Shown here: piece by piece, positions 9,821 to 41,247 of the stretch | Numbering within the stretch: position 1 is the first letter of the stretch | Layout of the letters: every line of letters starts with the position of its first letter | Assembly (NCBI RefSeq): GCF_033170155.1 | Contig: NZ_CP137079.1 | Span: 3,286,001 to 3,350,000 of the forward strand | DNA length: 64,000 nt | Direction of reading: 5' to 3' | Origin: Raineyella sp. W15-4 | GTDB taxonomy: Bacteria; Actinomycetota; Actinomycetes; Propionibacteriales; Propionibacteriaceae | The notes under the pieces: model-generated | Databases searched by the model: none | The model's input: the letters and a program-made list of their open reading frames with translations, nothing else | What the model was told of the DNA's origin: nothing | Program-made: the position numbers and the translations under genes

Positions 9821-9993
9821 GCCGAGTTCTGCCGCCGTCCGTGTCCGTTGTCATCAACGTCCAGGCAGAAGCGGGGGAACCACGTGTGACCGGCCCACCA
9901 GGTCGGCCTAGGGGTGAAGCCGAGGGGGACCCACCACAGTCCCCCGAGGCCGGGTGCCTCCCACCCGAACCCGACAGCTCACCCCGCAGGCAT
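9821..9993 (+). ncRNA. ydaO-type cyclic-di-AMP riboswitch
   Basis: The leader carries the conserved blocks of the ydaO class in order: GCCGAGTTCTGCCGCC, then GGGGGAACCACG, then AGGGGTGAAGCCG, and finally CCCGACAGCTCACCCCGCAG followed by GCAT. This is the pattern seen before rpfA and NlpC/P60 genes in other actinobacteria. GGAGG and the ATG at 10007 follow immediately, so ligand binding probably sets transcription or translation of the hydrolase. The class is normally an OFF switch when c-di-AMP is high. Boundaries are approximate. Confidence 0.88.
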
Positions 9994-10006
9994 ACGGAGG
10001 CCCCCC

Positions 10007-13768: not shown

Positions 13769-13795
13769 GTGGCCGTCTCTGGCCTCACCTGTGGG

Positions 13796-13845
13796 TTTCG
13801 ACCGCGCGTTCGTGTTCGACTACCAGCACAAGTGCGCGGGCGAAA
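13796..13845. repeat. 50-nt intergenic palindrome, copy A
   Basis: The element runs from TTTCG to CGAAA with imperfect arms (4 mismatches when extended to 24 nt each side, 13791-13850) around a loop containing GACTACCAG. It starts 43 nt after the PBP stop. The same 50-nt element recurs at 21188 and 26119. The remainder of the 370-nt gap to the next gene holds no gene I can support. Confidence 0.88.
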
Positions 13846-14123
13846 CCCACCCGTGGGCCGGCAGGGGCTCCCGGTACTCAGGAGCCAGCTGATCGTTGCG
13901 TGAGTCCTTGCGTGCCGCAGAATGATCCCAGTGATCCTGTGAATACCCTCGGGGGGTAGGGAGGGAATGGCGTCATTGCGTGGATCGAGCTGGTCGACCT
14001 CACAGAAAAGTTGACCATTCGAATACACAGGCGCATCTCTCCTACAGACCGTCGTACTACGGGCACCGGTGGTGTACTTTTCATCTGTACCCCCCAAACC
14101 AATGGAGAGGAAGAGGGAAGATC

Positions 14124-14705
14124 ATGGAACGCACCGTCTATGGTGTTCTGAGCAGGGTGGCGGCCATCGTGTTGGTCGTCGTGGGAGTCGTCGCCATCAT
14201 CGGCGGCACCTACGCCAATGGCTACGTGAAGAACCAGCTGTCTTCGGAGCGCATCACCATGCCGGCCGGGGCGGCGCTGGATGCCCTGAAGAACGACGGC
14301 GCAAAGGCGGCGCTCAGCAAGTACGCGGGGACCCCTCTCGACAGCGGCCCCAAGGCCCAGGCCTTCGCCAACCACTACATCCTCGTGCACATGAATGCGT
14401 CGAGCAACGGCAAGACCTACAACGAGATCTCCGGCCAGTACACCCAGCTGAGCGCCACGGACAAGGCCTCTCCGGATGGCGTGGCGCTCGGCAATCTGCG
14501 CCAGACCCTCTTCATGGGTGACACGCTGCGCGGCATGCTGCTGACCGCGTACGCCTGGTGGCTCGTCGGCACCATCGCGCTGTGGGCCGGTATCGCCCTG
14601 GTGGTCGTCGGCGTGGTCCTGGCCATCCTCGGCTGGGGTCCGCTGCGCAGCGGGAAGTCCACCGGTGCCCACAGCACCGAAGGACCCGCCGCCAAGGCCG
14701 CCTGA
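14124..14705 (+). CDS. Actinobacterial membrane protein with two TM segments, unknown function
   Basis: The 193-residue protein has a TM segment at residues 10-30, a soluble domain of about 110 residues (NQLSSERITMPAG, then YAGTPLDSGPKAQAFANHYI) and a second TM at about 148-175, followed by a short hydrophilic tail. Homologues with the same layout are widespread in actinobacteria and sometimes carry the misleading name LigA. The soluble part should face outward. AGAGGG six nt upstream supports the ATG. No function is assigned, and the neighbours give no clue. Confidence 0.6.
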   Translation: MERTVYGVLSRVAAIVLVVVGVVAIIGGTYANGYVKNQLSSERITMPAGAALDALKNDGAKAALSKYAGTPLDSGPKAQAFANHYILVHMNASSNGKTYNEISGQYTQLSATDKASPDGVALGNLRQTLFMGDTLRGMLLTAYAWWLVGTIALWAGIALVVVGVVLAILGWGPLRSGKSTGAHSTEGPAAKAA

Positions 14706-14876
14706 ACCGTCAGGCATCGCGACCGCACCCCCCAGCAGCCGCGGATCCCCACCGCAGCGGACCACCCGTCCGCCGGGGCCCCGGGATCCGCGACTGTTCG
14801 CGTCGGGGCGTACGACCTGGCGGTGCACTCCGGCAGAGTGCGCTCGCCGACGCTCAGCCGGCGCTCCCGCCGGCGC

Positions 14877-15794
14877 TCAGGCGGCCGCCAGCGGGCGCAC
14901 CAGTCCGCCGGGAACGTCCCGCAGCACCGCCGCGATCTCCGGCAGCAGTTCGCGGAAGACGCTGGTCCGCCGCCACAGCAGCGCGATGTCGCGGTGCGGG
15001 GCCGGATCCTGGAAGCGCCGCAGCGCGATCCCCGGATTGGGTGTGACGGGCGCGGCGACGGCGAGCTCGGGCAGCAGTGTCGCGCCGACCCCCGCGGCCA
15101 CCATGTGCCGCAACGTCTCCAGACTGGTCGCCCGGAAGCCCGCATGCTCGGTCGCCCCGGTCTCGGCGCAGACCTCCAGGGCCTGGTCACGCAGGCAGTG
15201 CCCCTCGGTCAACAGCAGCAGATCCTCGCCGTCCAGGGCGCCGGGATCGAGCGGGCCGTCCCCCTCCGCCATCACGTCGCCGACCGGGGCGGCGAAGACG
15301 AAGTCCTCGCGGAACAGCGGTTCGATGTGCAGGGTCTCGTCGGCCACCGGCAGCGCCACCGCGGCCGCATCGAGGGCCCCACTGCGCAACTCGTCCAGCA
15401 GCACCGCGGTCTTCTCCTCCACCAGCAGGATCTCCAGCCCGGGGAACCGGTGGTGCAGCTCGGGGACGATGTGCGGCAGCAGGTAGGGCCCCAGCGTCGG
15501 GAACATCCCCAGCCGGATGGTGCCGGCGTGCGGCTTGCGGGCCTGGCGGGCGAGGCCGCGGATGTCCTCGGCGTCGGCGAGGATCCGTCGGGCCCGGATC
15601 ACCACTGCCTCCCCCACCGCGGTGAAGATGACGCTGCGGGAGCTGCGTTCGATCAGCTCGACACCGAGCTCGGACTCCAGCTTGCGCAGCTGGGTCGACA
15701 GGGTCGGCTGGCTGACGAAACACGCCGCGGCCGCGCGCCCGAAGTGGCGCTGCTCGTGCAGGGCCACGAGATATTCGAGATCACGCAGGTTCAT
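14877..15794 (-). CDS. oxyR: LysR-type hydrogen-peroxide sensor OxyR
   Basis: The 305-residue regulator has an N-terminal LysR helix-turn-helix (residues 3-62) and a substrate-binding-like domain containing the redox pair GHC-(8)-C, Cys about 200 and 209, which matches the OxyR Cys199/Cys208 disulfide switch. It is downstream of ahpC and ahpF on the same strand, 95 nt after ahpF with a hairpin between. OxyR-like sites (ATAG-N7-CTAT) lie upstream of ahpC, so it probably activates that operon on peroxide stress. The start ATG follows a GGAG-containing sequence. Confidence 0.92.
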   Translation of the reverse strand: MNLRDLEYLVALHEQRHFGRAAAACFVSQPTLSTQLRKLESELGVELIERSSRSVIFTAVGEAVVIRARRILADAEDIRGLARQARKPHAGTIRLGMFPTLGPYLLPHIVPELHHRFPGLEILLVEEKTAVLLDELRSGALDAAAVALPVADETLHIEPLFREDFVFAAPVGDVMAEGDGPLDPGALDGEDLLLLTEGHCLRDQALEVCAETGATEHAGFRATSLETLRHMVAAGVGATLLPELAVAAPVTPNPGIALRRFQDPAPHRDIALLWRRTSVFRELLPEIAAVLRDVPGGLVRPLAAA

Positions 15795-15835
15795 GGTTCT
15801 CCTCCGGCGGTCTCGGCCGGATCGGCACCCCGGGA

Positions 15836-15853
15836 CCGCCCGACGGCGGGCGG
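15836..15853 (-). terminator. Hairpin between ahpF and oxyR
   Basis: CCGCCCG (15836-15842) and CGGGCGG (15847-15853) pair around ACGG, 36 nt downstream of the ahpF stop. It may partly uncouple oxyR from ahpCF. Confidence 0.5.
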
Positions 15854-15888
15854 CCCCGAGATGGTGTCGGGTGGTGCCGGGCGCCCGG

Positions 15889-17469
15889 TCAGTGGGCCGC
15901 CGCGGCCACCGGGGCCGGGGTGCGGATCAGGTGGTCGAAGGCGCTCAGCGCCGCGGTGGCACCGGAACCCTCGGCGACCACGATCTGCTTGAACGGGACG
16001 GTGGTGCAGTCGCCGGCACCGTAGATGCCGGGGATGTCCGTCTCGCCCTTCTGGTTGATGACGATCTCGCCGCGCGGGGTGAGCTCGACCGAGCCTTTCA
16101 GCCAGTCGGTGTTGGGCAGCAGGCCGATCTGGACGAAGACGCCGTCGACGTCCAGGGTCCGCAGCTCCCCGGTCGTCCGGTCCTCGTACTGCAGGCCGGT
16201 CATCTGCTTGCCGTCACCGTCGACCTCGGTCGTCCGCGCCGAGGTGATGACCTCGGTGTTGGGCAGGCTGTCCAGCTTCCGCAGCAGCACGTCGTCGGCC
16301 TTGAGCTGGTCGAGGAACTCCACGACGGTGACGTGTTCGGTGACACCGGCCAGGTCGATCGCGGCCTCGACACCGGAGTTGCCGCCGCCGACCACGGCGA
16401 TCGGCTTGCCCTTGAACAGCGGGCCGTCACAGTGCGGGCAGAACGACACGCCCTTGTTGCGGTAGTCCGCCTCACCGGGGACGCCGAGCGTACGCCACCG
16501 GGCGCCGGTGGCCAGGATGACCGTACGTGCCCGCAGTCGGCCGCCGCCCTCGAACTCGACGGTGTGCAGGTCGCCGTCCTCGCCCGGGATGAGTCGGCTG
16601 GCCCGGACACCGGGGATCTGGTCGATGTCGTACGCGCTCATGTGTGCGCCGTACGCCGCGCCGAGAGTCGGTCCCTCGGTGTAGACCTGCGAGATGTGGT
16701 TCTCGATCGCCAGCGTGTCGAGCACCTGGCCGCCGATCCGCTCGCACGCCATGCCGGTGCGGATGCCCTTGCGGGCGGCGTAGATGGCGGCCGAGGCGCC
16801 GGCCGGGCCACCGCCGACGACCAGCACCTCGTACGGTTCGCGCTCGTCGAGCTTCTCGGCGGTGCGGGCCGCGGCGTGGTGGTCGAGGCGCTCGACGAAC
16901 TGCTTCATGTCCGTACGTCCCGAGCCCCATTCCTCACCGTTGAGGTAGATGGTGGGGACGGCGAGGATCCGGCGCTCCTCGATCTCGTCCTGGAACAGGG
17001 ACCCCTCCACGGCGGTGTGCTTGATCCGCGGGTTGAGGACGGCCATCGCGTTGAGTGCCTGGACGACGGTCGGGCAGTTCTGACAGGTCAGCGACATGTA
17101 GGTGACGAACTCGTAGTCACCGTCGAGGTGCTCGACCGCCTCGAGGGTCTCGGCGTCCTCCTTGACCGGCACGCCGCCGACCTGGAGCAGGGCGAGGACC
17201 AGCGAGCTGAACTCGTGGCCCATCGGGATACCGGCGAAGCGGATGGAGATGTCCGCGCCCGGGCGGGTCACCGCGAAGGAAGGCCGGCGCGCGTCGTCGT
17301 CGGCGCGGCGGTAGGTGATCTTGTCCGACAGCCCGGCGATCTCCTCGAGCAGCTCGGCCATCTCCCGCGACTTCGGGCGGTCGTCCAGCGAGCTGACGAG
17401 CTCGACGGGCTCGGTGAGCTTGGTCAGGTACTGCTGTTGCAACTGGGTCTTGAGGGTGGCATCGAGCAT
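15889..17469 (-). CDS. ahpF: Alkyl hydroperoxide reductase flavoprotein subunit AhpF
   Basis: AhpF passes electrons from NAD(P)H through FAD to AhpC. The 526-residue length matches the family. An N-terminal double thioredoxin fold carries Cys129/Cys132 in CQNC. The FAD-binding motif [14 protein letters not shown] begins near residue 222, the redox disulfide is CPHC near 344-347, the nucleotide-binding motif is [10 protein letters not shown], and the second FAD motif is GAGDCTT near the C-terminus. The ATG at 17469 has AGGAGG five nt upstream, so 25 extra in-frame residues further upstream were discarded. The gene lies 99 nt after ahpC. Confidence 0.96.
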
Positions 17470-17568
17470 GGGGTCCTCCTGGTGCGGGGTCGGCGGCGGG
17501 CGGGAAACGGGCGCGGTGGGCACCCGGACGGACCGGGCACCCACCGCTCACTCAGGTGTCGGTCCGGA

Positions 17569-18132
17569 TCAGATCTTGCCGACGAGATCGATGCCCGGGG
17601 TGAGGGTCGCCTCGCCCTCTTCCCACTTGGCCGGGCAGACCTCGCCCGGGTGGGAGGCGACGTACTGGGCGGCCTTGATCTTGCGGATCAGCTGGCCGGC
17701 CTCACGGCCGATGCCCTCGGCGGTCGTCTCGATGTACTGGATGGTGCCCTCGGGATCGACCAGGAAGGTCGCCCGGTCGGCCTGGCCGGCCCCCGGACGC
17801 GCGTTGTCGAAGTTGTTGGTGATGGTGCCGTTCGAGTCGCCCAGCATGTAGTACTGGATCTTGCCGACCTCATCGGAGGAGTCGTGCCAGGCCTTGTGGA
17901 CGAAGTGCGAGTCGGTGGACACGGAGAAGACCTCGACACCGAGCTTCTGCAGCTCGTCGTAGTGGTCGGCCATGTCGCCGAGCTCGGTCGGGCAGACGAA
18001 GGTGAAGTCGGCCGGGTAGAAGAAGAAGACCGACCACTTGCCGAGGGCGTCCTTCTCGGACACCTCGACGAACTTGCCCTGGTGGTAGGCCTGCGTGGTG
18101 AACGGCAGGATCTTGGTGTTCATGAGCGACAT
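17569..18132 (-). CDS. ahpC: Alkyl hydroperoxide reductase peroxiredoxin AhpC
   Basis: This 187-residue typical two-Cys peroxiredoxin reduces hydrogen peroxide, organic peroxides and peroxynitrite. The peroxidatic Cys47 is in DFTFVCPTE and the resolving Cys is near 166 in GEVCPAKW. The length and the N-terminus MSLMNTKI match the enterobacterial protein, which fixes the start at 18132. It is first in the ahpC-ahpF-oxyR cluster. The upstream region holds two ATAG-N7-(C)TAT or CGAT elements and a -10-like TAGAGT (18176-18181, minus strand). Confidence 0.97.
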
Positions 18133-18175
18133 CGGGTGAACCCCTTTTCTGGACGGCTTGCTGAATGCAATACAG

Positions 18176-18181
18176 ACTCTA
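18176..18181 (-). promoter_or_regulatory. -10 hexamer TAGAGT of ahpC
   Basis: TAGAGT on the minus strand lies 43 nt before the ahpC ATG. The OxyR-like element at 18202-18216 lies 20 nt upstream of it, overlapping where a -35 would sit. That position suits an activator. Confidence 0.45.
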
Positions 18182-18201
18182 TATCGGTCACCCCGACTTC
18201 G

Positions 18202-18250
18202 ATAGGCGTTTTCGATCGAACTTGTGGATCGCATCATAGGCTCCGTCTAT
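18202..18250. promoter_or_regulatory. Two OxyR-type sites upstream of ahpC
   Basis: ATAG-GCTCCGT-CTAT at 18236-18250 fits the OxyR half-site pair ATAG-N7-CTAT exactly. ATAG-GCGTTTT-CGAT at 18202-18216 is a near match. Two such pairs in tandem are what a tetrameric OxyR contacts. They sit 70-120 nt before the ahpC start codon, in an unusually A+T-rich stretch. Confidence 0.65.
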
Positions 18251-18276
18251 CGAAGTGGCCTGGATCACACTATCGT

Positions 18277-18942
18277 TCACGCCTCGGTGACCTCGCCGGC
18301 CACGATCCGCAGCCGGCGCTGGGCCCGCGCAGCGACCGTGGAGTCGTGGGTGACGATCACCATGGTCAGCTGGTTGTCCCGCCAGTACGACTCCAGGAGG
18401 CCCATGATCTCGTCCCGCATGGCCTCGTCCAGATTGCCGGTCGGCTCGTCCGCGAGCAGCACCTTGGGGTCCTTCACCAGGGCCCTGGCGATGGCGACGC
18501 GCTGCTGCTGGCCGCCGGACAGTTCGCCCGGCAGATGGTCCGCCCGGCTGCCCAGGCCCACTGCCTCCAATGCCTCCTGGGCCCGTCGGCGGCGGTCGGC
18601 CGCCGGCACCCGCGCCGGAACGAGGGCGCACTCGACGTTCTCCCGGGCCGACAGCGTCGGGATCAGGTTGAACGCCTGGAAGACGAAGCCGATCTCGTCG
18701 GCGCGGACCCGGGTCAGTGCCCGCTCCTTCATCGCGGCGAGGTCCTGGCCGGCCATCGCCACCTGGCCGCCGGTGGGTCGGTCCAGTCCCCCGAGCATCT
18801 GCAGCAGGGTGGACTTGCCGCCGCCGGTGGGTCCCTGCACGGCCACCATCTGGCCGTCGGGGATCTCCAGGTCGACGTCCTTGAGCGCGACCACGGTCCG
18901 CTTGCCCTGGTAGGTCTTGTTGACGTGTGACAGCTGGTACAT
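18277..18942 (-). CDS. ABC transporter ATP-binding protein, MacB/LolD type
   Basis: This 221-residue ATPase has Walker A GPTGGGKST at 37-45, a Q-loop in FVFQAFNLIPTLSA, the signature LSGGQQQR near 141 and Walker B VLLADEP near 160, the set typical of the MacB/LolD/FtsE group. It pairs with the permease encoded just upstream, whose stop lies 11 nt before this start. GAGGAG precedes the ATG at 18942 by 7 nt; a TTG 15 nt earlier overlaps the permease stop and is unlikely. The exported substrate is unknown, and lipoproteins, peptides and drugs are all possible. Confidence 0.93.
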   Translation of the reverse strand: MYQLSHVNKTYQGKRTVVALKDVDLEIPDGQMVAVQGPTGGGKSTLLQMLGGLDRPTGGQVAMAGQDLAAMKERALTRVRADEIGFVFQAFNLIPTLSARENVECALVPARVPAADRRRRAQEALEAVGLGSRADHLPGELSGGQQQRVAIARALVKDPKVLLADEPTGNLDEAMRDEIMGLLESYWRDNQLTMVIVTHDSTVAARAQRRLRIVAGEVTEA

Positions 18943-18953
18943 CGTTGCGCTCC

Positions 18954-20441
18954 TCAATCCATGCTTCGCAGGGCTACGGCGGGGCTCAGCCGGGCCGCTC
19001 GTGATCCGCCGATCAGTCCGGCCAGCAGGCCGCCGACGACGGCCGCCGCGAGGCCGAGGACCAGCATGGTCGGCTGGACCGGACTGTGCAGGACCACCTG
19101 GACCGCGTTGGCGGTGCCCCCCATCGCCGCACCGGCCGGGCCCGCGGCTGCCGCGCTCGCCATGCCGCCGGCCATGCTCGGCATGCCGCCTCCGCCGCCG
19201 GACCGTCCGAGCCCCAGACCGGCCGATCCGGACAGGGTGATCCCGACCGCGTTGAGGACCCCGAGGATGCCGGCGCCGAGCGCGATGCCGACCAGGCCGC
19301 CGATCGCGGCACGTACGGCCGCCTCGCCGGTGATCTGCCCGATCACCCGGTTGTTCGACCAGCCGATCGCCTTCAGGGTGCCGAGCTCACGGGTGCGGCG
19401 GTTGACTCCGGACAGGGTGAACAGGATCGCCAGCAGGAAGGCGAGCACCAGGGTGGCCACGGAGACCCACTGGCCCAGGCCCTCGGTCAGCTTCGCGGCG
19501 GAGGCCAGCGAACCGGAGACCGACGAGGCGAGGTCCGACTGGGTCGAGACGGTGGTCGAGGGCAGCGCCTCGCGCAGCGCGGCCGCGGTGGCGTCCACCT
19601 GGCCGGCGGAGGTGGCGCGGACGTAGATCTCGTTCACCTTGCCGGTGTCCCCGGAGGCGCTCTGGGCGAAGCCGAGCGGCAGGTAGATGTCCGACAGGGT
19701 GGTCGAGTCGGAGGAGGCGATCCCGACGACCTTGACCGTGCTGGTGCCGATCGTGATCGTGCTGTCGACGCTCAGGCTCTGCGTGCTGGCGTAGTTCGCG
19801 CTGATCACCGCGACGGCCTGGTCGTTGTCCGACGCCGTCAGGGCGCGGCCCAGGGTGATGGTGGCCGAGGCCAGCGGGCCGAGTTCGGTCGAGGCCGGGT
19901 CGACGCCCGACACCGAGGTCTGCTGGAAGCCGAAGCTGCCGCCGCCGAACCCACCGCCGGGCGTGCCTTCCTGCCCCTGGGTGGTCCTCGAGCCCTGTGC
20001 CGGCGCCGAGGAGGTGCCGCTCGGCAGCTCACCGGAAAAGTTCATCAGGTTGAGGTTGAGCACGCCGGTGGCAGCGGACACCCCGGTGACCCCGCGCGCG
20101 GTGTCGACCGTGGCGGCGTCGAGCGTCGAACTGCCCCGTGACGTTTCCAGCCGGCTGGACTGCAGCGACGTGGTGCCGTTCTGGGTGGAACCCTGGCCAC
20201 GGTCGAACTCGAACCGCTGGCCCGGGGTCGCCCCACTCCCGGGGGCTGCGACCTGGCTCACGGTGATGTCGGTCCCCACCCCGTACAGGGACTGCAACAC
20301 CTGGGACTGGCCGTTCCGGATGCCTGCCGAGACACCGCTCAGGACGATCAGCAGCGCAGTGGCCACCGCCATCCCGAGCGCGATGATGATCGTTTCCTTG
20401 CGCCGTCGGGTCAATTCCCGCCGAACCGTCAGACCGAACAT
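18954..20441 (-). CDS. ABC transporter permease, MacB/FtsX type
   Basis: The 495-residue permease has one N-terminal TM segment (about 20-42), a large extracytoplasmic MacB-PCD-like domain (about 45-300) rich in Ser, Thr and Gly, and three C-terminal TM helices of the FtsX domain. The segment NRRTRELGTLKAIGW is the conserved FtsX coupling region. A Gly/Met-rich insertion interrupts the loop between the last two helices. AGGAGG lies 3 nt before the ATG; a GTG 12 nt upstream is possible. It forms an exporter with the ATPase downstream. Confidence 0.9.
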   Translation of the reverse strand: MFGLTVRRELTRRRKETIIIALGMAVATALLIVLSGVSAGIRNGQSQVLQSLYGVGTDITVSQVAAPGSGATPGQRFEFDRGQGSTQNGTTSLQSSRLETSRGSSTLDAATVDTARGVTGVSAATGVLNLNLMNFSGELPSGTSSAPAQGSRTTQGQEGTPGGGFGGGSFGFQQTSVSGVDPASTELGPLASATITLGRALTASDNDQAVAVISANYASTQSLSVDSTITIGTSTVKVVGIASSDSTTLSDIYLPLGFAQSASGDTGKVNEIYVRATSAGQVDATAAALREALPSTTVSTQSDLASSVSGSLASAAKLTEGLGQWVSVATLVLAFLLAILFTLSGVNRRTRELGTLKAIGWSNNRVIGQITGEAAVRAAIGGLVGIALGAGILGVLNAVGITLSGSAGLGLGRSGGGGGMPSMAGGMASAAAAGPAGAAMGGTANAVQVVLHSPVQPTMLVLGLAAAVVGGLLAGLIGGSRAARLSPAVALRSMD

Positions 20442-20637
20442 GGTCCTCCTCACGAAACCGGTAGTAGCGACTCGACGGTAAGGAGGACGGTTAGTGCGGT
20501 GGTGTCACGATTCTGTGCGGTCGCTGTGCCGTCGGGTCGGCTGGGTCACATCGGCGGTCGACGCCGAGGGCTTCGTCCCGGGCCGGCCCCCGCTGCGGCG
20601 ATCGACCCGACAGGGCCACCGCAGTCCGCGCCCGCAC

Positions 20638-20643
20638 TAGGCT
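20638..20643 (+). promoter_or_regulatory. -10 hexamer TAGGCT of the AhpD-like gene (leaderless)
   Basis: TAGGCT ends 7 nt before the ATG at 20651, with no Shine-Dalgarno. Confidence 0.5.
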
Positions 20644-20650
20644 GACCAGC

Positions 20651-21109
20651 ATGGCGCGCTTCTACCTCGACAAGTCCGACCCCGCGAGCTGGGCCGCTGG
20701 CAACGCCTGGTCCGACACCATCCAGCGTGCGGTGCACGCGGCCGGTATCCAGCTCGCCGTGATCGAACTGATGAACCTGCGGATCTCGCAGATCAACGGG
20801 TGCGCCTACTGTCTCGACGTCCACGCCCGCAAGGCCGCCGGCGCCGGCATCACCGCCCAGCAGCTCGCCGTGTTGTCCGCCTGGCGGGAGGCCGAGGAGA
20901 TGTTCACCGACCTGGAGCGCGCTGCGCTGACCATCGCCGAGGCGGCCACCGTCCTGCCGGAACCCGAGGTGCGGAAGGCGGAGCTGGCGCGCGCCCGCGC
21001 GGCGCTGACGGACGAGCAGTTCTCCGCGCTGCAGTGGTCGGCGATCAGGATGAACGTCTACAACCGGGTCTCCATCCTGAGTGAGCATCCGGTCCGTCCC
21101 CGGGAGTGA
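20651..21109 (+). CDS. AhpD/carboxymuconolactone-decarboxylase family protein
   Basis: The 152-residue all-helical protein has the family's redox motif NGCAYCLDVHAR, with Cys51, Cys54 and His58. The CxxC-(3)-H arrangement gives alkylhydroperoxidase or disulfide-reducing activity in AhpD relatives. It may serve general thiol-dependent peroxide removal, which fits the ahpCF-oxyR cluster 3 kb away, although it is not in that operon. It is transcribed divergently from the ABC permease with a leaderless start. A 50-nt palindrome begins 79 nt after the stop. Confidence 0.88.
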   Translation: MARFYLDKSDPASWAAGNAWSDTIQRAVHAAGIQLAVIELMNLRISQINGCAYCLDVHARKAAGAGITAQQLAVLSAWREAEEMFTDLERAALTIAEAATVLPEPEVRKAELARARAALTDEQFSALQWSAIRMNVYNRVSILSEHPVRPRE

Positions 21110-21187
21110 ACTCGGACGTGACGGGGCGGACAAGACCGGCGACGAGACCGGGCGGACGTGACGGGGCAGCCCAATCCCACCTGCGGG

Positions 21188-21237
21188 TTTCGCCCGCGCA
21201 CTTGTACTGGTAGTCAGACACAAACGCGCGGGCGAAA
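21188..21237. repeat. 50-nt intergenic palindrome, copy B
   Basis: It has the same length and ends (TTTCG...CGAAA) as copies A and C, with TTTCGCCCGCGC perfectly inverted at the other end. The loop GGTAGTC is the reverse complement of that in A and C, so this copy is inverted. It starts 79 nt after the AhpD-like stop. Confidence 0.88.
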
Positions 21238-21303
21238 GGCACCCGTGGAATGAAGGGTAGAGCCCCTGTGGCCCCGCGGTTTTCGGGATCCTGCCCCGCC
21301 GGG

Positions 21304-21309
21304 TAGGAT
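21304..21309 (+). promoter_or_regulatory. -10 hexamer TAGGAT of the manganese riboswitch transcript
   Basis: TAGGAT stands directly before the aptamer. A weak TTTTCG 18 nt upstream could serve as -35. Confidence 0.45.
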
Positions 21310-21415
21310 GGCCGGTGAAAGGGAGTAGTCCCCGAACTGTCACGTCGACATACTGGCTCCTGCCCGGCGTGACGGCCATCGATGATGGCGGACGAGACTT
21401 TCGGCCGTTTTGCCC
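21310..21415 (+). ncRNA. yybP-ykoY manganese riboswitch
   Basis: The conserved paired blocks of this class are present: GGTGAAAGGGAGTAG near the 5' end, GTCACGTCGACATACTGG, and GGCGGACGAGACTTTCGGCC at the 3' side, followed by a T-rich run. The class binds Mn2+ and switches on metal exporters. Its target here, the GDT1/TMEM165-type gene at 21488, is one of the two protein families most often found behind it. Boundaries are approximate. Confidence 0.82.
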
Positions 21416-21487
21416 CCCATCGGACGGGGACGGTCGGAGCCATCCCTTTCCGGGCGGCCCGTGGCCGTGCCCGGAGAGGACCCTCTC

Positions 21488-22072
21488 GTGAACGCCCTGC
21501 TCCTCAGCATCGCCGTCATCTTCGTCGCCGAACTCGGCGACAAGAGCCAGCTGATGGCGATGACCTTCGCCGCCCGCTACCGCCCCCGCGACGTCCTGAT
21601 CGGCATCAGCATCGCGACCGCCATCGTCCACCTGGCCTCGGTGGGCATCGGCTTCTTCATCGGCGACGTGTTCGGCCAGTGGCAGGGCGGCATCGCCGTC
21701 GTCGCCGGCATCGCCTTCCTGGCCTTCGCGGTGTGGACGCTGCGCGGCGACGAACTCACCGAGGCCGAGGCCGACAAGGCCCGCAATGCCAAGGGATTCT
21801 CGCTGGTCGCCGTGGGCACCGCGTTCCTCCTGGCCGAGCTCGGCGACAAGACCATGCTCGCCACCATCACCCTCGCCACGCAGGAGAACTGGTTCTGGAC
21901 CTGGATCGGGTCGACGGTCGGCATGGTTGCCGCCGACGCCCTGGCGATCCTGGTCGGTTTCATCCTCAAGCGCCGGCTCCCCGAGAAGGTGATCCGGATC
22001 GGCGCCGCCGCACTGTTCGTGCTGTTCGGACTGCTACTGATCGGCGAGGGCACCGGCGTTCTGGGCCGCTGA
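21488..22072 (+). CDS. GDT1/TMEM165 (UPF0016) family manganese exporter
   Basis: The 194-residue membrane protein has six predicted helices and the two signature motifs of the family, ELGDKS at residues 15-20 and ELGDKT near 118. Bacterial members (MneA, Mnx) export Mn2+. The GTG at 21488 has GGAGAGG 8 nt upstream. The manganese riboswitch in the leader supports the substrate. The 3' end overlaps the convergent rhomboid-like gene by 39 nt. Confidence 0.9.
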   Translation: MNALLLSIAVIFVAELGDKSQLMAMTFAARYRPRDVLIGISIATAIVHLASVGIGFFIGDVFGQWQGGIAVVAGIAFLAFAVWTLRGDELTEAEADKARNAKGFSLVAVGTAFLLAELGDKTMLATITLATQENWFWTWIGSTVGMVAADALAILVGFILKRRLPEKVIRIGAAALFVLFGLLLIGEGTGVLGR

Positions 22073-23008
22073 GCCGACCCGGGACGCCAGCACGGCGTCT
22101 ACGGTCCCGGCGGAGCGTACGGTGCCGGCGGAGCGTACGGGCCCCGGCGAGCCCACGGGAACCGGCGAGCCCACGGGAACCGGCGAGGCCACGGGCCGGA
22201 GCGGCCGCACCGACGCGGAAGACCGCACCGGCCAGGGCCTCCGCCCGGAGGCCGGCCGCCACGCGAACCGCTCGCCGAGAGTGTCCAGCTGCGCCACCGG
22301 CCACCCGGTCGGTGCCGGCCGGTGCAGGAAGACCGGTCCGATCGCGAACCCGATCGCGGCCGCCAGGATGTGCCCCAGCGAGGTGAATCCCGGCGTGAGG
22401 ACCGCCGCCTGCACCAGGTAGGCGATCACCAGGCCCGCCCACACCGGACGCCACCGGCCCCGCAGCCCGTATGTCCCCACCGCGGCGACGCAGAAGAAGG
22501 CGTAGCTGGCGCCGACGTCGATGGTGTTCACGACAGTCGCCGGCACCCGTCCGGTGCTGACGCCGACCGACAGCAACACCGCCACCAGCAGGGTGGCGCC
22601 GATGTGCCCGGCCCAGAACACCAGCAGCCAGGCACGGGTCCCGATCCAGTGCTCGACCGGGGCCGCGACCAGCGTGAAGAGCACCAGCCAGCCGATCATC
22701 TCGGCCGGCGTGGCCCAGAAGGCGCTGCGCACCAGCACGGTCATCGGCTCGGACTGGAGCTGGTGCAGGTTGGTGCTCATGTCGCGCAGCAGCGCAGTGG
22801 TGAGCCGGCTGCCGGCACCGGCCAGGATCCAGGTGGTCACCCCGAGGACCGCCAGCGTGACGAAGGTCGCCGGCGCCGTACGGACGTAGCGGACGATCGC
22901 CGGGCCGCGGCGCAGCCACAGGGCGTGCAGCCGGCGGGTGCCCGGCCAGTCGCGGCCGACGGCGAAAGTCGCCAGCCCGATGGCCACGGCGACGACGAGT
23001 GTGACCAT
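22034..23008 (-). CDS. Rhomboid-like membrane protein
   Basis: The 324-residue protein has about seven hydrophobic segments. VEHWIGTRAWL, then GHIGATLL, then DVGASYAFFCVAAVG and later GHILAAAIG resemble the rhomboid fold. The catalytic GxSG is replaced by GASY, so it may be an inactive (pseudoprotease-like) rhomboid. Residues 250-324 are a repetitive Val/Pro/Ser/Gly tail encoded by 18-nt tandem repeats (about 22140-22200), and the last 13 codons overlap the manganese exporter gene. The true stop could be earlier in related strains. The 18-nt repeats look recently expanded. Confidence 0.6.
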   Translation of the reverse strand: MVTLVVAVAIGLATFAVGRDWPGTRRLHALWLRRGPAIVRYVRTAPATFVTLAVLGVTTWILAGAGSRLTTALLRDMSTNLHQLQSEPMTVLVRSAFWATPAEMIGWLVLFTLVAAPVEHWIGTRAWLLVFWAGHIGATLLVAVLLSVGVSTGRVPATVVNTIDVGASYAFFCVAAVGTYGLRGRWRPVWAGLVIAYLVQAAVLTPGFTSLGHILAAAIGFAIGPVFLHRPAPTGWPVAQLDTLGERFAWRPASGRRPWPVRSSASVRPLRPVASPVPVGSPVPVGSPGPVRSAGTVRSAGTVDAVLASRVGSAAQNAGALADQ

Positions 23009-23201
23009 GAGGGCTCCCGCGGCTCGGACGTACGGAACGCCTCCATCGTGGGCAGCACCGACAAGAGGCCGATGAGAGGTTCCCGTGCGGTTCCTGTGCG
23101 GAGGGGAGGATCCCCCAGCGGACCCGGAGCCGGCCGATGCCGAGCACCCAGAAGTCCCGGATCCACCGCTCCGGCAGGGCCGACACGCCGGGGTCGCGGC
23201 C

Positions 23202-23207
23202 TAGCCT
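23202..23207 (+). promoter_or_regulatory. -10 hexamer TAGCCT of the small acidic protein gene
   Basis: TAGCCT lies 49 nt before the ATG at 23257. A normal leader with GGGAG follows. Confidence 0.4.
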
Positions 23208-23256
23208 TGAACCAACGCAGCCGGTCCACCCGGCACATCATCACGGGAGCACTGAC

Positions 23257-23631
23257 ATGGGATTCAACTTCGACGAGGCCAAGAAGAGCCTGGAAGAGAC
23301 CCTCGACAAGGTGGGCAAGGTCGTCAAGGAGGCCGTCGACCAGATCGACGACGTCATCGAGAAGGGCCGCGAGACGCTGAGCGAGAAGCTCGAGCCGACG
23401 CAGGAGGGCGAAGCCGCCACATCGCCGGAGGGGGCCGCCGGCACCACCACCGCCACCGCCGAGAAGCCCGGCGCCGAAGGGGCCACCGCCGAGGAGGCCA
23501 CTTCTGGGGAGGCCACCACTGACACCGACGAGTCCGCCGCGGACACCAGCGAGTCCGCCACCCCTGAGTCGGCCACTCCTGACGAATCGACGCCGTCGGA
23601 CGAGCCCAAGCCGGACGACTTCACCATCTGA
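23257..23631 (+). CDS. Small acidic protein, amphipathic N-terminus and low-complexity tail
   Basis: I do not recognise a family. Of its 124 residues, the first 50 form a charged amphipathic helix (FDEAKKSLEETLDKVGKVV) that could be a coiled coil. The rest is Thr/Ser/Ala/Glu/Pro-rich and strongly acidic, ending in KPDDFTI. There is no signal peptide or TM segment. GGGAG precedes the ATG by 7 nt, and a strong hairpin lies 34 nt after the stop, so it is a genuine monocistronic unit. Confidence 0.6.
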   Translation: MGFNFDEAKKSLEETLDKVGKVVKEAVDQIDDVIEKGRETLSEKLEPTQEGEAATSPEGAAGTTTATAEKPGAEGATAEEATSGEATTDTDESAADTSESATPESATPDESTPSDEPKPDDFTI

Positions 23632-23664
23632 CCCCACCGTCTGACCCCTCCGGATCCGTCACTC

Positions 23665-23688
23665 ACCGGCGGGGCCCACCCCGCCGGT
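23665..23688 (+). terminator. Perfect 10-bp hairpin after the small acidic protein gene
   Basis: ACCGGCGGGG (23665-23674) and CCCCGCCGGT (23679-23688) pair around CCCA, 34 nt after the stop. Confidence 0.65.
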
Positions 23689-23731
23689 GTCGCCCGCCGG
23701 ACGCGCACACGGACCATGCGGAGCCCGGGCC

Positions 23732-23737
23732 TACCAT
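23732..23737 (+). promoter_or_regulatory. -10 hexamer TACCAT of the acetyltransferase gene (leaderless)
   Basis: TACCAT ends 6 nt before the ATG at 23744, with no Shine-Dalgarno. Confidence 0.5.
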
Positions 23738-23743
23738 CGGCCC

Positions 23744-24451
23744 ATGGTTCCCGTGGTCCGTGATGGCGTCACCCCCGCTGTTCCGTCGGCTCCCGCTGCG
23801 TCGACCGTACGGTCGGCTCCCGCTGCATCACCTGCGCCCTCGGCGCCCATGGCTCCGTCGGCGTCGACCGCCACCACCGACTCGCCCATCGCCGCCGTGC
23901 CCACCACGGCCGTACCGGGACAAATGATCATCCGCGACGCCATCCCCGCCGACGCGGCGGCGTGCGCCGCGATCTACGCCCCCTACGTCGACGACACCAC
24001 CATCACGTTCGAGGAGGTCGCCCCCTCGGTGGAAGAGATGGCCGGCCGGATGGCGAGAGCGGCTACAGACTGGGCGTGGCTCGTCGCCGAGGTCGACGGA
24101 CGGGTGCTCGGCTATGCGTATGCCGGGCGCTTCAAGGAACGCGTCGCGTTCCGCTGGTCCTGCGAGACCAGCGTCTACTTGGCCGCCGACACCCGCGGCC
24201 GAGGCCTCGGGAAGCTGCTCTACACCACGCTGCTCGACCGGCTGACGCAGCGTGGCTACCGGACCGCCGTCGCGGTGATCACCCAGCCCAACGAGGCGAG
24301 CATGGCGCTGCACCGGTCGTTCGGCTTCGAACAGGTCGCCCTGCTCCCCTCGATCGGGTTCAAGCACAACGCCTGGCGGGACGTGGTGTGGCTGCTCAGG
24401 TCGCTCGGCGACGGTCCGGTGCCCGACCAGGCACCCGCCGAGCCGCGCTGA
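23744..24451 (+). CDS. GNAT acetyltransferase, phosphinothricin acetyltransferase-like
   Basis: The 235-residue protein has an Ala/Pro/Ser/Thr-rich extension (1-59) and then a GNAT domain (60-225) of the Pat/YncA/MddA type. Landmarks are RDAIPADAAACAAIY, the acetyl-CoA loop TRGRGLGKLLY near 155, and SMALHRSFGF. Relatives acetylate phosphinothricin, methionine sulfoximine or methionine sulfone. The ATG at 23744 is supported by a leaderless promoter. A start at residue 60 (MIIRDA) would give the usual family length, so the long tail is odd. It contains a repeated GTCGGCTCCCGCTGC. Confidence 0.82.
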   Translation: MVPVVRDGVTPAVPSAPAASTVRSAPAASPAPSAPMAPSASTATTDSPIAAVPTTAVPGQMIIRDAIPADAAACAAIYAPYVDDTTITFEEVAPSVEEMAGRMARAATDWAWLVAEVDGRVLGYAYAGRFKERVAFRWSCETSVYLAADTRGRGLGKLLYTTLLDRLTQRGYRTAVAVITQPNEASMALHRSFGFEQVALLPSIGFKHNAWRDVVWLLRSLGDGPVPDQAPAEPR

Positions 24452-24475
24452 ATCCACCGCGTCGCCCCCGGCCTC

Positions 24476-25546
24476 TCAGCCGGCCAGTTCCAACGGCCGC
24501 CCCTCGAAGTCGGCGAGTCGCTGCGCCTCGGCCGCGATGGCCTTCCGTTGCCGTGCCGTCACCGACGGGCTGAGGTCAAGGCTGACCCTGGTGGTGGCGC
24601 CTGTCGCCCGGCGCTGCCACAGCCCGACCTCCGCCAGGTCGCAGATCACCACCCCGCCGCCGACCCGGGCGTACGTGGGCGGTCGGTCACCCTTGGGATG
24701 GCCGGGGACCCGTTCCCACGAGGGTGCCAGGTAGGTCAGCGTGGCCTCGTCGAAGGTGGGCAGCAGGTGCGCCCGGCGGGGCCGGGTCCCCTCCGCCACC
24801 GCGGTCGGGTCCCACCACAGCTCCACCCCGTCCACCGTCGCCGAGGACAGCCCCAGGTCTCCCAGCGCCGACCTGACCTCGGCCTGTGTCACCGCCGCCC
24901 AGCGGGTGAGTTCCTTTACGCTCGCCGGTCCGTGGCCGGCGAAGAACCGGGCGGTGAGGTCGCGGACCAGGTCCTCCCGGGTGCGCTCCGGGACGGTGGG
25001 GATGAGGTCGTCCATCAACACGTACGTGTGCTGGCCGTCCGCCGAGGGCCCCGAGACGATCAGCTCCCGCAGTTCGGCGACCAGCAGCAGATGGCCCACC
25101 ACCTGGCCCTGTTCCGGGAATCCGGTCGTCGGCAGCAGCGGGTGCAACTGCCGACGGGTCAGCGGTCCCTGCGCGGTCAGCGTCTCCCGCAGCACCGCGA
25201 AGGCCCGCTCCAGCACTGCCTCGGTAATCCGCAACTGCCGGTGCCGGGCCCCCATCGACCGCTCGATCCGGGCAGCACTGAGCGCCAGCAGCCAACGCAG
25301 GTCCTCGGGGAGCACATAGTGCCAGGTGGGCCGCAGCACGTGGGTGCGGACCAGCCGGCCCTCGTCCACCGCCCGGCTGACGACGCCGTCGTCGGCCGCG
25401 GAGCGCATCCCGATCGACCAGCGGGCCATCGGGGCGTCCTGGGACTGGACGGCGAGCGCCTCACCGACGACCCGCACCGGATCGGCGGGAGCCGCGGTCA
25501 GCCGCTGGGTGACCAGCCGCTGGGCCAGCAGCGTCGTACGGTCCAT
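24476..25546 (-). CDS. Winged-helix protein of the HTH_42 / AlkZ family
   Basis: The 356-residue protein belongs to the tandem winged-helix group once called DUF1006, which includes the DNA glycosylases AlkZ (azinomycin self-resistance) and YcaQ (crosslink repair). Near residue 37 the sequence LAVQSQDAP has the QxQ motif where AlkZ carries its catalytic glutamines. RPTWHYVLPEDLRWLL and GRLVRTHVLRPTWH are further family landmarks. It may unhook alkylated or cross-linked bases. AGGAGG precedes the ATG at 25546 by 4 nt. Many relatives are only annotated as DNA-binding, so the activity is inferred. Confidence 0.78.
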   Translation of the reverse strand: MDRTTLLAQRLVTQRLTAAPADPVRVVGEALAVQSQDAPMARWSIGMRSAADDGVVSRAVDEGRLVRTHVLRPTWHYVLPEDLRWLLALSAARIERSMGARHRQLRITEAVLERAFAVLRETLTAQGPLTRRQLHPLLPTTGFPEQGQVVGHLLLVAELRELIVSGPSADGQHTYVLMDDLIPTVPERTREDLVRDLTARFFAGHGPASVKELTRWAAVTQAEVRSALGDLGLSSATVDGVELWWDPTAVAEGTRPRRAHLLPTFDEATLTYLAPSWERVPGHPKGDRPPTYARVGGGVVICDLAEVGLWQRRATGATTRVSLDLSPSVTARQRKAIAAEAQRLADFEGRPLELAG

Positions 25547-25651
25547 GCCGCCTCCTGTCCCGACACACGGCCCCCGGTGCCCCACCGCCGAGCAGGGATG
25601 ATCAGCGGTCGCCGGGCGGTGACCCTCAGTCCGGTCGCCGGGCAGTGATCC

Positions 25652-25978
25652 TCAGTCCTGCTCGACCTGCTCCTGCTCCTTGCGGCCATGGCCCTTGTAG
25701 AGCATGTCCAGGTAGTCGGGGTGACGATGCATCCAGCCGTTGATGAACGGGCAGATCGCCAGCACCTCACGGTCGCCCTCGGCCCGGACCTCGTCGAGCG
25801 CGGTCCTCGCCAGCGCCGACCCGACCCCCTTGCCCTCGAAGGCGGGCCGGGTCTCGGTGTGGGTGAAGACGATCAGGTTCGTCGCGAGCTGATACTCCGC
25901 GAACCCGGCAAGCTCGCCGTCGACGCGGGCCTCGTAGCGCCCCTCGGACTCGTTGCGGGTGACAATGACCTCGGTCAT
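25652..25978 (-). CDS. Short GNAT-like N-acetyltransferase (YjdJ type)
   Basis: The 108-residue protein matches the small GCN5-related family with one compact domain. It includes GELAGFAEYQL, the acetyl-CoA loop FEGKGVGSALAR and CPFINGWMHRHPDYLDMLY at the C-terminal side. Substrates of this group are unknown. The mRNA should be leaderless: TAGGAT ends 6 nt before the ATG at 25978. Confidence 0.85.
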   Translation of the reverse strand: MTEVIVTRNESEGRYEARVDGELAGFAEYQLATNLIVFTHTETRPAFEGKGVGSALARTALDEVRAEGDREVLAICPFINGWMHRHPDYLDMLYKGHGRKEQEQVEQD

Positions 25979-25984
25979 GCGGAC

Positions 25985-25990
25985 ATCCTA
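25985..25990 (-). promoter_or_regulatory. -10 hexamer TAGGAT of the short acetyltransferase gene (leaderless)
   Basis: TAGGAT on the minus strand ends 6 nt before the ATG. Confidence 0.5.
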
Positions 25991-26118
25991 GCCACCGCCT
26001 CCGACGCCGCCCGGGCTGCGCACGGTATCCCAGGCCGAGGGAGGCTCGCCTCAGCATCCCGGACCGAGGGGCGCTCGTCTCGGCGCTGACATGGGACCAC
26101 GCCCGTTCCACAGGTACG

Positions 26119-26168
26119 TTTCGCCTGCGCACTTGTGCTCGACTACCAGCACAAGTGCGCAGGCGAAA
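26119..26168. repeat. 50-nt intergenic palindrome, copy C (perfect 21-bp stem)
   Basis: The 21-nt arm TTTCGCCTGCGC...TTGTGCT and its exact complement flank the 8-nt loop CGACTACC. It lies 70 nt downstream of the stop of the minus-strand glycosyltransferase gene. Copies A and B are degenerate versions of the same length. Confidence 0.92.
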
Positions 26169-40853: not shown

Positions 40854-40878
40854 CCGGGACGGAACCCCCTCAGGGTTC

Positions 40879-40914
40879 GCGGACGAGGGAGCAGTACCCG
40901 CACGGACAAGACTG
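40879..40914 (+). ncRNA. Guanidine-III (ykkC-III) riboswitch
   Basis: GCGGACGAGG, then CAGTACCCGC and GGACAAGACTG, match the compact actinobacterial guanidine-III class almost base for base. Its pseudoknot can be drawn: GCGG (40879-40882) pairs with CCGC (40898-40901), and CAGT (40892-40895) pairs with ACTG (40911-40914). It is 18 nt from the start of the first SMR gene, the expected target of this class. Confidence 0.87.
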
Positions 40915-40932
40915 ACTCGGACGGGTCCTGTC

Positions 40933-41247
40933 ATGTCTTGGTTGATCCTCGTCGCCTCCGGAGTGATGGAAGCCGTCTGGGCCACCGCCTTGGGTGCTTC
41001 CCACGGTTTCCGGCGGCCGGTGGCCACCATCACGTTCTTCGTCTCCCTGATCCTCAGCATGCTCGGTCTTGCTCGGGCGATGACCGACCTGCCGACCGGG
41101 ACCGCGTACGCGGTCTGGGTGGGGATCGGTGCCACCCTCACCGTCGTGGTCGGCCTGGTCACCGGGACCGAACGCCTCACGGTCGCCCGCTGCCTCCTGC
41201 TGGTCCTGCTGATCGGGTCGGTCGCCGGACTGAAGGCGGTGAGCTGA
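40933..41247 (+). CDS. SMR-family guanidinium exporter subunit 1
   Basis: The 104-residue protein has four TM helices and the SMR hallmarks: an essential Glu at residue 13 in GVMEAVWATALG, and GTAYAVWVGIGA. It pairs with the next gene, 2 nt downstream, as in heterodimeric SMR pairs such as YkkCD. The guanidine-III riboswitch in the leader indicates guanidinium export (Gdx function) rather than general drug resistance. The ribosome-binding site is weak, as is usual when a riboswitch masks it. Confidence 0.88.
   Translation: MSWLILVASGVMEAVWATALGASHGFRRPVATITFFVSLILSMLGLARAMTDLPTGTAYAVWVGIGATLTVVVGLVTGTERLTVARCLLLVLLIGSVAGLKAVS

Follow-up and report, generated by a model that had tools for sequence, protein, structure and literature searches.

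A 64,000-nt stretch of the Raineyella sp. W15-4 genome (the window; C1:3286001-3350000 of the single contig, C1, of 3,962,933 bases that makes up this genome, here G000) carries three intergenic palindromes of 50 nt, and raises the question of what such elements are and on which protein they might depend. An earlier note on the window, made from its letters, proposed a genus-specific element of the repetitive extragenic palindromic (REP) type that might act as a terminator, a protein-binding site or a mobile hairpin. The three palindromes belong to a dispersed family, close pairs of which bracket genes for proteins combining an AbiEi-like domain with a domain of predicted nuclease fold, and the same bracketing recurs in many genera. 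The explanation that we favor, with some reservation, is that these short hairpins owe their spread or maintenance to a cognate nuclease, much as REP sequences are linked to REP-associated tyrosine transposases (RAYTs), with an unrelated enzyme in the transposase's place.

The window copies have the structure first described for them: each is 50 nt long and runs from TTTCG to CGAAA, the GACTACC center is inverted in copy 2, and copy 3 forms a perfect 21-bp stem with the loop CGACTACC. Searching the window for GACTACCAGCACAAGT with up to three mismatches gives four matches where 0.11 are expected, namely the three copies and one unrelated site with three mismatches. Folded as 80-nt single-stranded DNA, copies 1, 2 and 3 have z scores of -5.6, -5.5 and -7.5, and no Rfam family covers the window palindromes at its gathering score. 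Many copies of the family extend beyond 50 nt, with CRCAGGTG-like shoulders on both sides. The nearest gene ending toward each copy stops 43, 79 and 70 nt away (copies 1, 2 and 3; genes called here and below with a home-made codon-bias caller), and the spacing of 40 to 80 nt after a stop codon noted earlier thus holds in the window; it is not a rule elsewhere in G000, where placements are mixed.

Beyond the window the family is much larger. The strict pattern suggested in the earlier note matches 4 copies in G000, the core 20-mer is found at 10 places with up to three mismatches, and a model built from those ten places (R1, 80 positions) finds at least 26 distinct places at E <= 0.01. A second model (R2, 50 positions) was trained on 25 copies from G000 and 25 from G003, its closest relative among the four genus genomes compared (G000 to G003). 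At E <= 0.01, with distinct places counted by hand, R2 gives at least 29 in G000, at least 40 in G003 and at least 5 in G001, of which 4, 15 and 5, respectively, lie outside the training set, whose copies match by construction; among the matches listed, none is in G002. The genome-wide counts from the strict pattern and R2 rule out chance or a local duplication, the explanations that would have applied had only three copies existed. A search of 57 genomes with R1 yields matches at E <= 0.001 in G000, G003, G001 and G022, the last from the same family, and an exact-pattern scan of a public genome collection, in which G000's own and near records may not be included, yields none.

The centers of the palindromes fall into several types. 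The 27 copies aligned from G000 comprise 14 with exactly GACTACC (type A, that of the window), 6 of type B (GTCATTC or GTCACTC) and 7 with other centers. The 28 aligned from G003 (a few weak rows of which are possibly out of register) lack exact GACTACC altogether and include 16 with GTCATTC and 6 with a TTG(C/T)G(C/T)TCATGC stem (type E). The contrast in GACTACC centers between G000 and G003, and the lack of R2 places listed for G002, bear out the proposed REP-like dispersed hairpin, at a very narrow spread; a RAYT partner is not supported, as discussed below. The places in G001 and G002 that match those of copies 1 to 3 have no palindrome (read by eye; no R2 place there), and neither does the place of copy 1 in G003. 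At the place of copy 2, the two neighbor genes stand much farther apart in G003 and have a GTCATTC-type palindrome between them; the place of copy 3 in G003 lies outside the mapped comparison. The intergenic counterpart of copy 1 in G001 (L093) contains a 30-nt unit in three tandem copies (TCCGCGAGGGCTCACGCCGCCCCCATACCG and a variant).

Close pairs of palindromes lead to single genes (Table 1), which code for proteins of 297 to 311 amino acids with a match to PF13338 (AbiEi_4) and a sub-threshold match to PF04480 (DUF559). GACTACC centers are present in G000, which has gene A, and absent from the copies aligned from G003, which lacks it; across the four genomes, type A palindromes are therefore found where gene A is found. 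G002 has two homologues, one with palindromes of its own and the other without matching flanks.

Table 1. Window palindromes and palindrome-associated genes in the genus genomes
Feature	Genome	Position	Strand	Description
Palindrome copy 1	G000	window 13796..13845	+	Type A, center GACTACC, imperfect stem; R1 79.4 bits; with shoulders 13781-13860
Palindrome copy 2	G000	window 21188..21237	-	Type A, GACTACC center on - strand; R1 87.4 bits; with shoulders 21173-21252
Palindrome copy 3	G000	window 26119..26168	+	Type A, perfect 21-bp stem; R1 97.2 bits; with shoulders 26104-26183
Gene A	G000	C1:3742163-3743095		Outside the window; between type A palindromes (as in the window) at 3742077 and 3743223
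Gene B	G000	2411660-2412592		Between palindromes 2411501 and 2412689, both type B
Third gene	G000	3108139		With palindromes of its own
Gene E	G003	2274590-2275516		Between palindromes 2274264 and 2275706
Gene B	G003			87% identical to G000 gene B; one palindrome upstream (2393714), next 1.9 kb downstream
Single homologue	G001	2621408-2622340		Between palindromes 2621260 and 2622382

The bracketed protein has two recognizable parts. Its AlphaFold2 model, from 68 aligned homologues, has a predicted local distance difference test score (pLDDT) of 92.9, and in Foldseek searches the N-terminal fold matches AbiEi (6y8q, E 6.3e-08) and Rv2827c (E 1.2e-04). That this is an AbiEi-type domain is also indicated by PF13338 matches in all four genus proteins scanned and by PADLOC AbiEi models matching 4/4 of the proteins given. 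A sequence-profile search returns two PDB chains, AbiGI (9hlo) and 6y8q; NCBIfam has no match for the six proteins queried. The C-terminal domain of the predicted model has the Vsr/EDxHD nuclease fold, matching the catalytic domain of I-Bth0305I (3r3p; target template modeling score [TM] 0.78, E 0.013) and NGO0050 (3hrl, E 0.033). Residues E189, D217, E228, D230 and H235 are unchanged across the 68 homologues, a pattern that would suit a working nuclease, and the product of the bracketed gene probably cuts DNA.

The pairing of palindromes with this gene is general. From a public genome collection, the best 80 of 107 confirmed homologue loci were taken and 12 dropped (short match or a flank of <260 nt), leaving 68 that span Propionibacteriaceae, Jiangella, Phytoactinopolyspora, Gordonia, Nocardioides, Phycicoccus and others. 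The likeness between upstream and downstream flanks exceeds the 99th percentile of 816 mismatched pairs at 52 of these loci and their maximum at 44, and a shifted control passes in 4/128 cases; 17 of 20 further loci from a family search also pass (L231, L232 and L244 fail). Hairpins occur on both sides at 22/68 loci (compared with 2/255 shifted placements) and on at least one side at 46/68, compared with 2/63, 35/64, 5/64 and 0/64 in controls, the high value arising where the control window takes in part of the upstream flank of the gene itself. The downstream palindrome lies over or just past the stop codon in many loci, and the stems vary from genus to genus. Within the family, 61 of 117 genomes have a homologue of the protein at E <= 1e-10. 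The association of palindromic repeats with the AbiEi plus EDxHD-fold gene is well supported as real and widespread. Carriage by plasmids or phages was considered and rejected on one protein per collection: that of L147 has no plasmid match at 1e-20, and that of L166 has one partial phage match at 1e-10. At L214 and L215 (G129 and G065), the homologue is flanked by a compound repeat, not plainly palindromic, that starts TTGGGGACTCCTGTAGT.

Solo copies are found in other genera as well. In Phytoactinopolyspora limicola, sites matching the arm of the palindrome that flanks the gene, with up to three mismatches, number 99 forward and 96 reverse (control, 0), corresponding to about 99 dispersed palindromes. 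A pattern drawn from two Gordonia loci is present at 8 and 3 places in two of seven Gordonia genomes and at none in the other five, and Propioniferax innocua has four places with a TTTGTG..CACAAA center, two of which bracket its gene.

The two arms of a palindrome change together. Across 49 distinct copies, 86.8% of stem cells pair, 17 of the 21 pairs are altered on both sides, and double-sided changes number 111 cells compared with 51.4 in shuffles (0/500) and far fewer in slid controls, in an ungapped alignment whose palindromy-rewarding centering script biases it somewhat toward structure. In P. limicola, 70 loci gave 53 distinct copies (5 weak ones skipped, 12 merged as second arms), and the outer arms, 30 to 36 nt from the center, differ between copies and pair within a copy in 272/371 cells, compared with 196 when permuted (0/2000); variable core positions pair in 295/318 compared with 237. 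G003 outer arms likewise pair in 119/175 cells compared with 97.8. The P. limicola pattern could mean either that fold-back copying gives new copies their arms or that the element enters existing hairpins.

A scheme joining these observations would have the palindromes be short non-coding hairpins dependent on the protein whose gene the same palindromes bracket, a protein built, by its predicted folds, of an AbiEi-like winged-helix DNA-binding domain and a Vsr/EDxHD-fold nuclease domain. The winged-helix part would recognize the palindrome, perhaps at its conserved center once extruded as a hairpin, and the nuclease would cut either the palindrome or a target site; repair would then copy the palindrome into a new place, one arm being templated on the other by fold-back synthesis. 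Most copies are non-coding, and the gene persists on the chromosome in a single copy or a few, a feature shared with REP/RAYT systems. What the data show is the family, its dispersal, the bracketing in many genera, the coupled arm changes and the predicted folds; the steps of binding, cleavage and movement are inferred. A bolder extension, which we regard as somewhat doubtful, is that Actinomycetota have a palindrome-spreading class of their own, in which an AbiEi-EDxHD nuclease replaces the HUH transposase, and cleavage of hairpins followed by fold-back repair creates new copies, turning flanks into matching arms. Such repair would leave outer arms that differ between copies yet pair within a copy, with coupled arm changes.

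Several results weigh against spread or maintenance by the nuclease. The I-Bth0305I match has an E value of 0.013, and the DUF559 match is weak, being below the Pfam cut-off in four genus proteins and above it for the third gene of G000. Among six wider homologues, DUF559 is above the cut-off in L228, below it in L131 and absent in L147, L166, L196 and L118, and AbiEi_4 matches L228, L147, L166 and L118, with L196 matching neither; the two-domain label therefore owes as much to the predicted folds as to Pfam. The flank test fails at 16/68 loci, and when flanks are trimmed at the called start and stop, the test is passed by 42/68 aligned rows, 22 of them in direct and 20 in inverted orientation and any flank of <200 nt being scored as a miss, a count that is lower at least partly because the downstream palindrome overlaps the 3' end of the gene in some loci. 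Over 42 loci, palindrome likeness does not track protein identity (rho 0.03, 319 of 1000), and no deep co-evolution of the two was found. In G000, arms do not pair outside the 50-nt core (83/182 compared with 85.4). Insertions with clean, exact ends were sought between G000 and G003, in two Gordonia pairs and beside gene A, whose neighbor has no good relative within the genus, and none turned up; both flanks aligned at 11 of 27 places in the G000-G003 comparison, partly because orthologous regions were taken by interpolation, and 6 were read. Site 3733870 measures 274 nt in G000 and 33 nt in G003, without sharp ends, and site 1293518 has a near-identical palindrome in both genomes, so that some copies are old. 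Two further observations were made in passing. Coding DNA of G000 and G003 is often ~92% identical, but intergenic DNA near palindromes has diverged strongly and varies in length between the two. In Gordonia aichiensis and G. otitidis (L159 and L163), the likeness between species ends ~34 nt past the stop codon of the nuclease gene.

Other explanations account for parts of this evidence. AbiEi antitoxins autoregulate via inverted repeats, and the palindromes could accordingly be operators of the AbiEi-like protein, the flanking pair autoregulating its gene and solo copies regulating other genes or titrating the protein, with a secondary role for the nuclease domain. This is unlikely, although the N-terminal fold, the PADLOC matches and the tracking of gene by palindrome type all agree with it: the second palindrome lies downstream of the gene, solo copies have no preference for promoter positions, and some 99 near-identical copies in P. 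limicola, together with invariant acidic residues, would be superfluous for a regulon. A toxin-antitoxin-like N-terminal domain, and hairpins conserved while their sequence changes, would also fit a nuclease that acts on cruciforms, for which the palindromes are substrates or protective tags, as part of an addiction or genome-maintenance module that is not mobile. We regard this as improbable; copy numbers ranging from few to about 99 and sites that are empty between species fit spread better, and there is no AbiEii toxin among four Pfam-scanned neighbors of genes A and B, few neighbors being covered.

The strong fold, the covariation of paired sites and the position of window copies just past stop codons are what would be expected of transcript elements, either RNA terminators or 3'-end stabilizers amplified for that role, with the bracketing of the nuclease gene a by-product. 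We give this little credence, and intrinsic terminators in particular are unlikely since copies sit between genes in all orientations: of 27 placements in G000, 14 are co-directional, 7 convergent and 5 divergent, with 1 overlapping a called open reading frame (ORF), and of 28 in G003 the corresponding numbers are 12, 5, 9 and 2. A scan of the three window copies reports no complete stem followed by a run of T, its one hit being a partial stem of 5 pairs within copy 1, and covariation reaches the P. limicola outer arms, which vary between copies. A location within genes was rejected, the three overlapped ORFs having no Pfam match and resembling shadow frames. An ordinary REP or miniature inverted-repeat transposable element (MITE) moved by another transposase would likewise be palindromic, intergenic, dispersed and lineage specific, with an incidental link to the nuclease gene; it is very improbable, as the link is present at the 52 loci noted above in many genera, the bracketed gene is outside known transposase classes and the Y1 transposase family PF01797 has no match in any of the four genus genomes (the control matched in 5/14 genomes; DDE transposases were not searched for). 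The RAYT partner that the earlier note suggested looking for is rejected on the same PF01797 result. The other two roles named in that note, a protein-binding site and a mobile hairpin, may still apply, and the candidate partner gene gives them a sharper form.

Compared with known systems, the likeness to REP/RAYT (REPtrons) is one of anatomy, the defining enzyme not having been found. Both have small, dispersed intergenic palindromes, here at the numbers of places given by R2, both have a bracketed gene in one or a few copies, and both have several palindrome types per genome; however, the RAYT gene codes for a Y1 HUH transposase rather than an AbiEi-like plus EDxHD-fold protein, and the GTAG/CTAC motif is not enriched here (10/68 compared with a shuffled mean of 6.8, in palindrome centers only). 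EDxHD homing endonucleases (I-Bth0305I) and Vsr-like nucleases share the predicted fold of the C-terminal domain, but the gene here lies between palindromes and not, as far as seen, in an intron or intein, is accompanied by many non-coding palindromes, and has an AbiEi-like domain fused in front. The AbiE type IV toxin-antitoxin system shares the AbiEi N-terminal domain and differs in lacking the fused nuclease-fold domain and genome-wide palindromes. MITEs are also short, non-coding, dispersed inverted-repeat elements, but the elements here are palindromic nearly throughout, and no constant direct duplication is evident by eye in the 53 P. limicola copies, for which no search for parent transposases was made. 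CGTC-tagged REPs (Di Nocera 2013; PMC3733652) are likewise dispersed palindromes without a RAYT, and are described there as having no dedicated enzyme, whereas the repeats here enclose the gene for a candidate enzyme.

No account of palindromic repeats paired with an AbiEi-EDxHD gene was found in the literature searched, which leaves most subscription papers and bioRxiv preprints outside, so that an earlier report is possible; judged by titles and the beginnings of abstracts, the DUF559 papers in that literature do not concern repeats, and DUF559 combined with palindromic gave unrelated work only. The pairing looks like an undescribed route for the spread of short repeats; in it, REP-like repeats of another phylum bracket the genes of a nuclease family that has no relation to the known transposases of REPs. 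If correct, it would add to the ways in which short repeats can spread through genomes, assign a function to a widely distributed protein family currently classed as toxin-antitoxin or unknown function, and might yield hairpin-specific nucleases; should the AbiEi-EDxHD spreading class also be real, many proteins labeled AbiEi antitoxin or DUF559 would be repeat-mobilizing enzymes. The recurrent bracketing calls for explanation even if movement is wrong.

The window has other features of note, all on the + strand. A c-di-AMP riboswitch (RF00379, 40.5 bits) at 9842-10004 is directly followed by an NlpC/P60 gene (10007-10885), and a sub-threshold manganese riboswitch match (RF00080, 22.6 bits compared with a gathering score of 45) at 21321-21466 runs into a GDT1 family gene (21461-22072). 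A Guanidine-III riboswitch (RF01763, 41.7 bits) at 40858-40921 precedes a gene coding for a small multidrug resistance protein (40942-41247).

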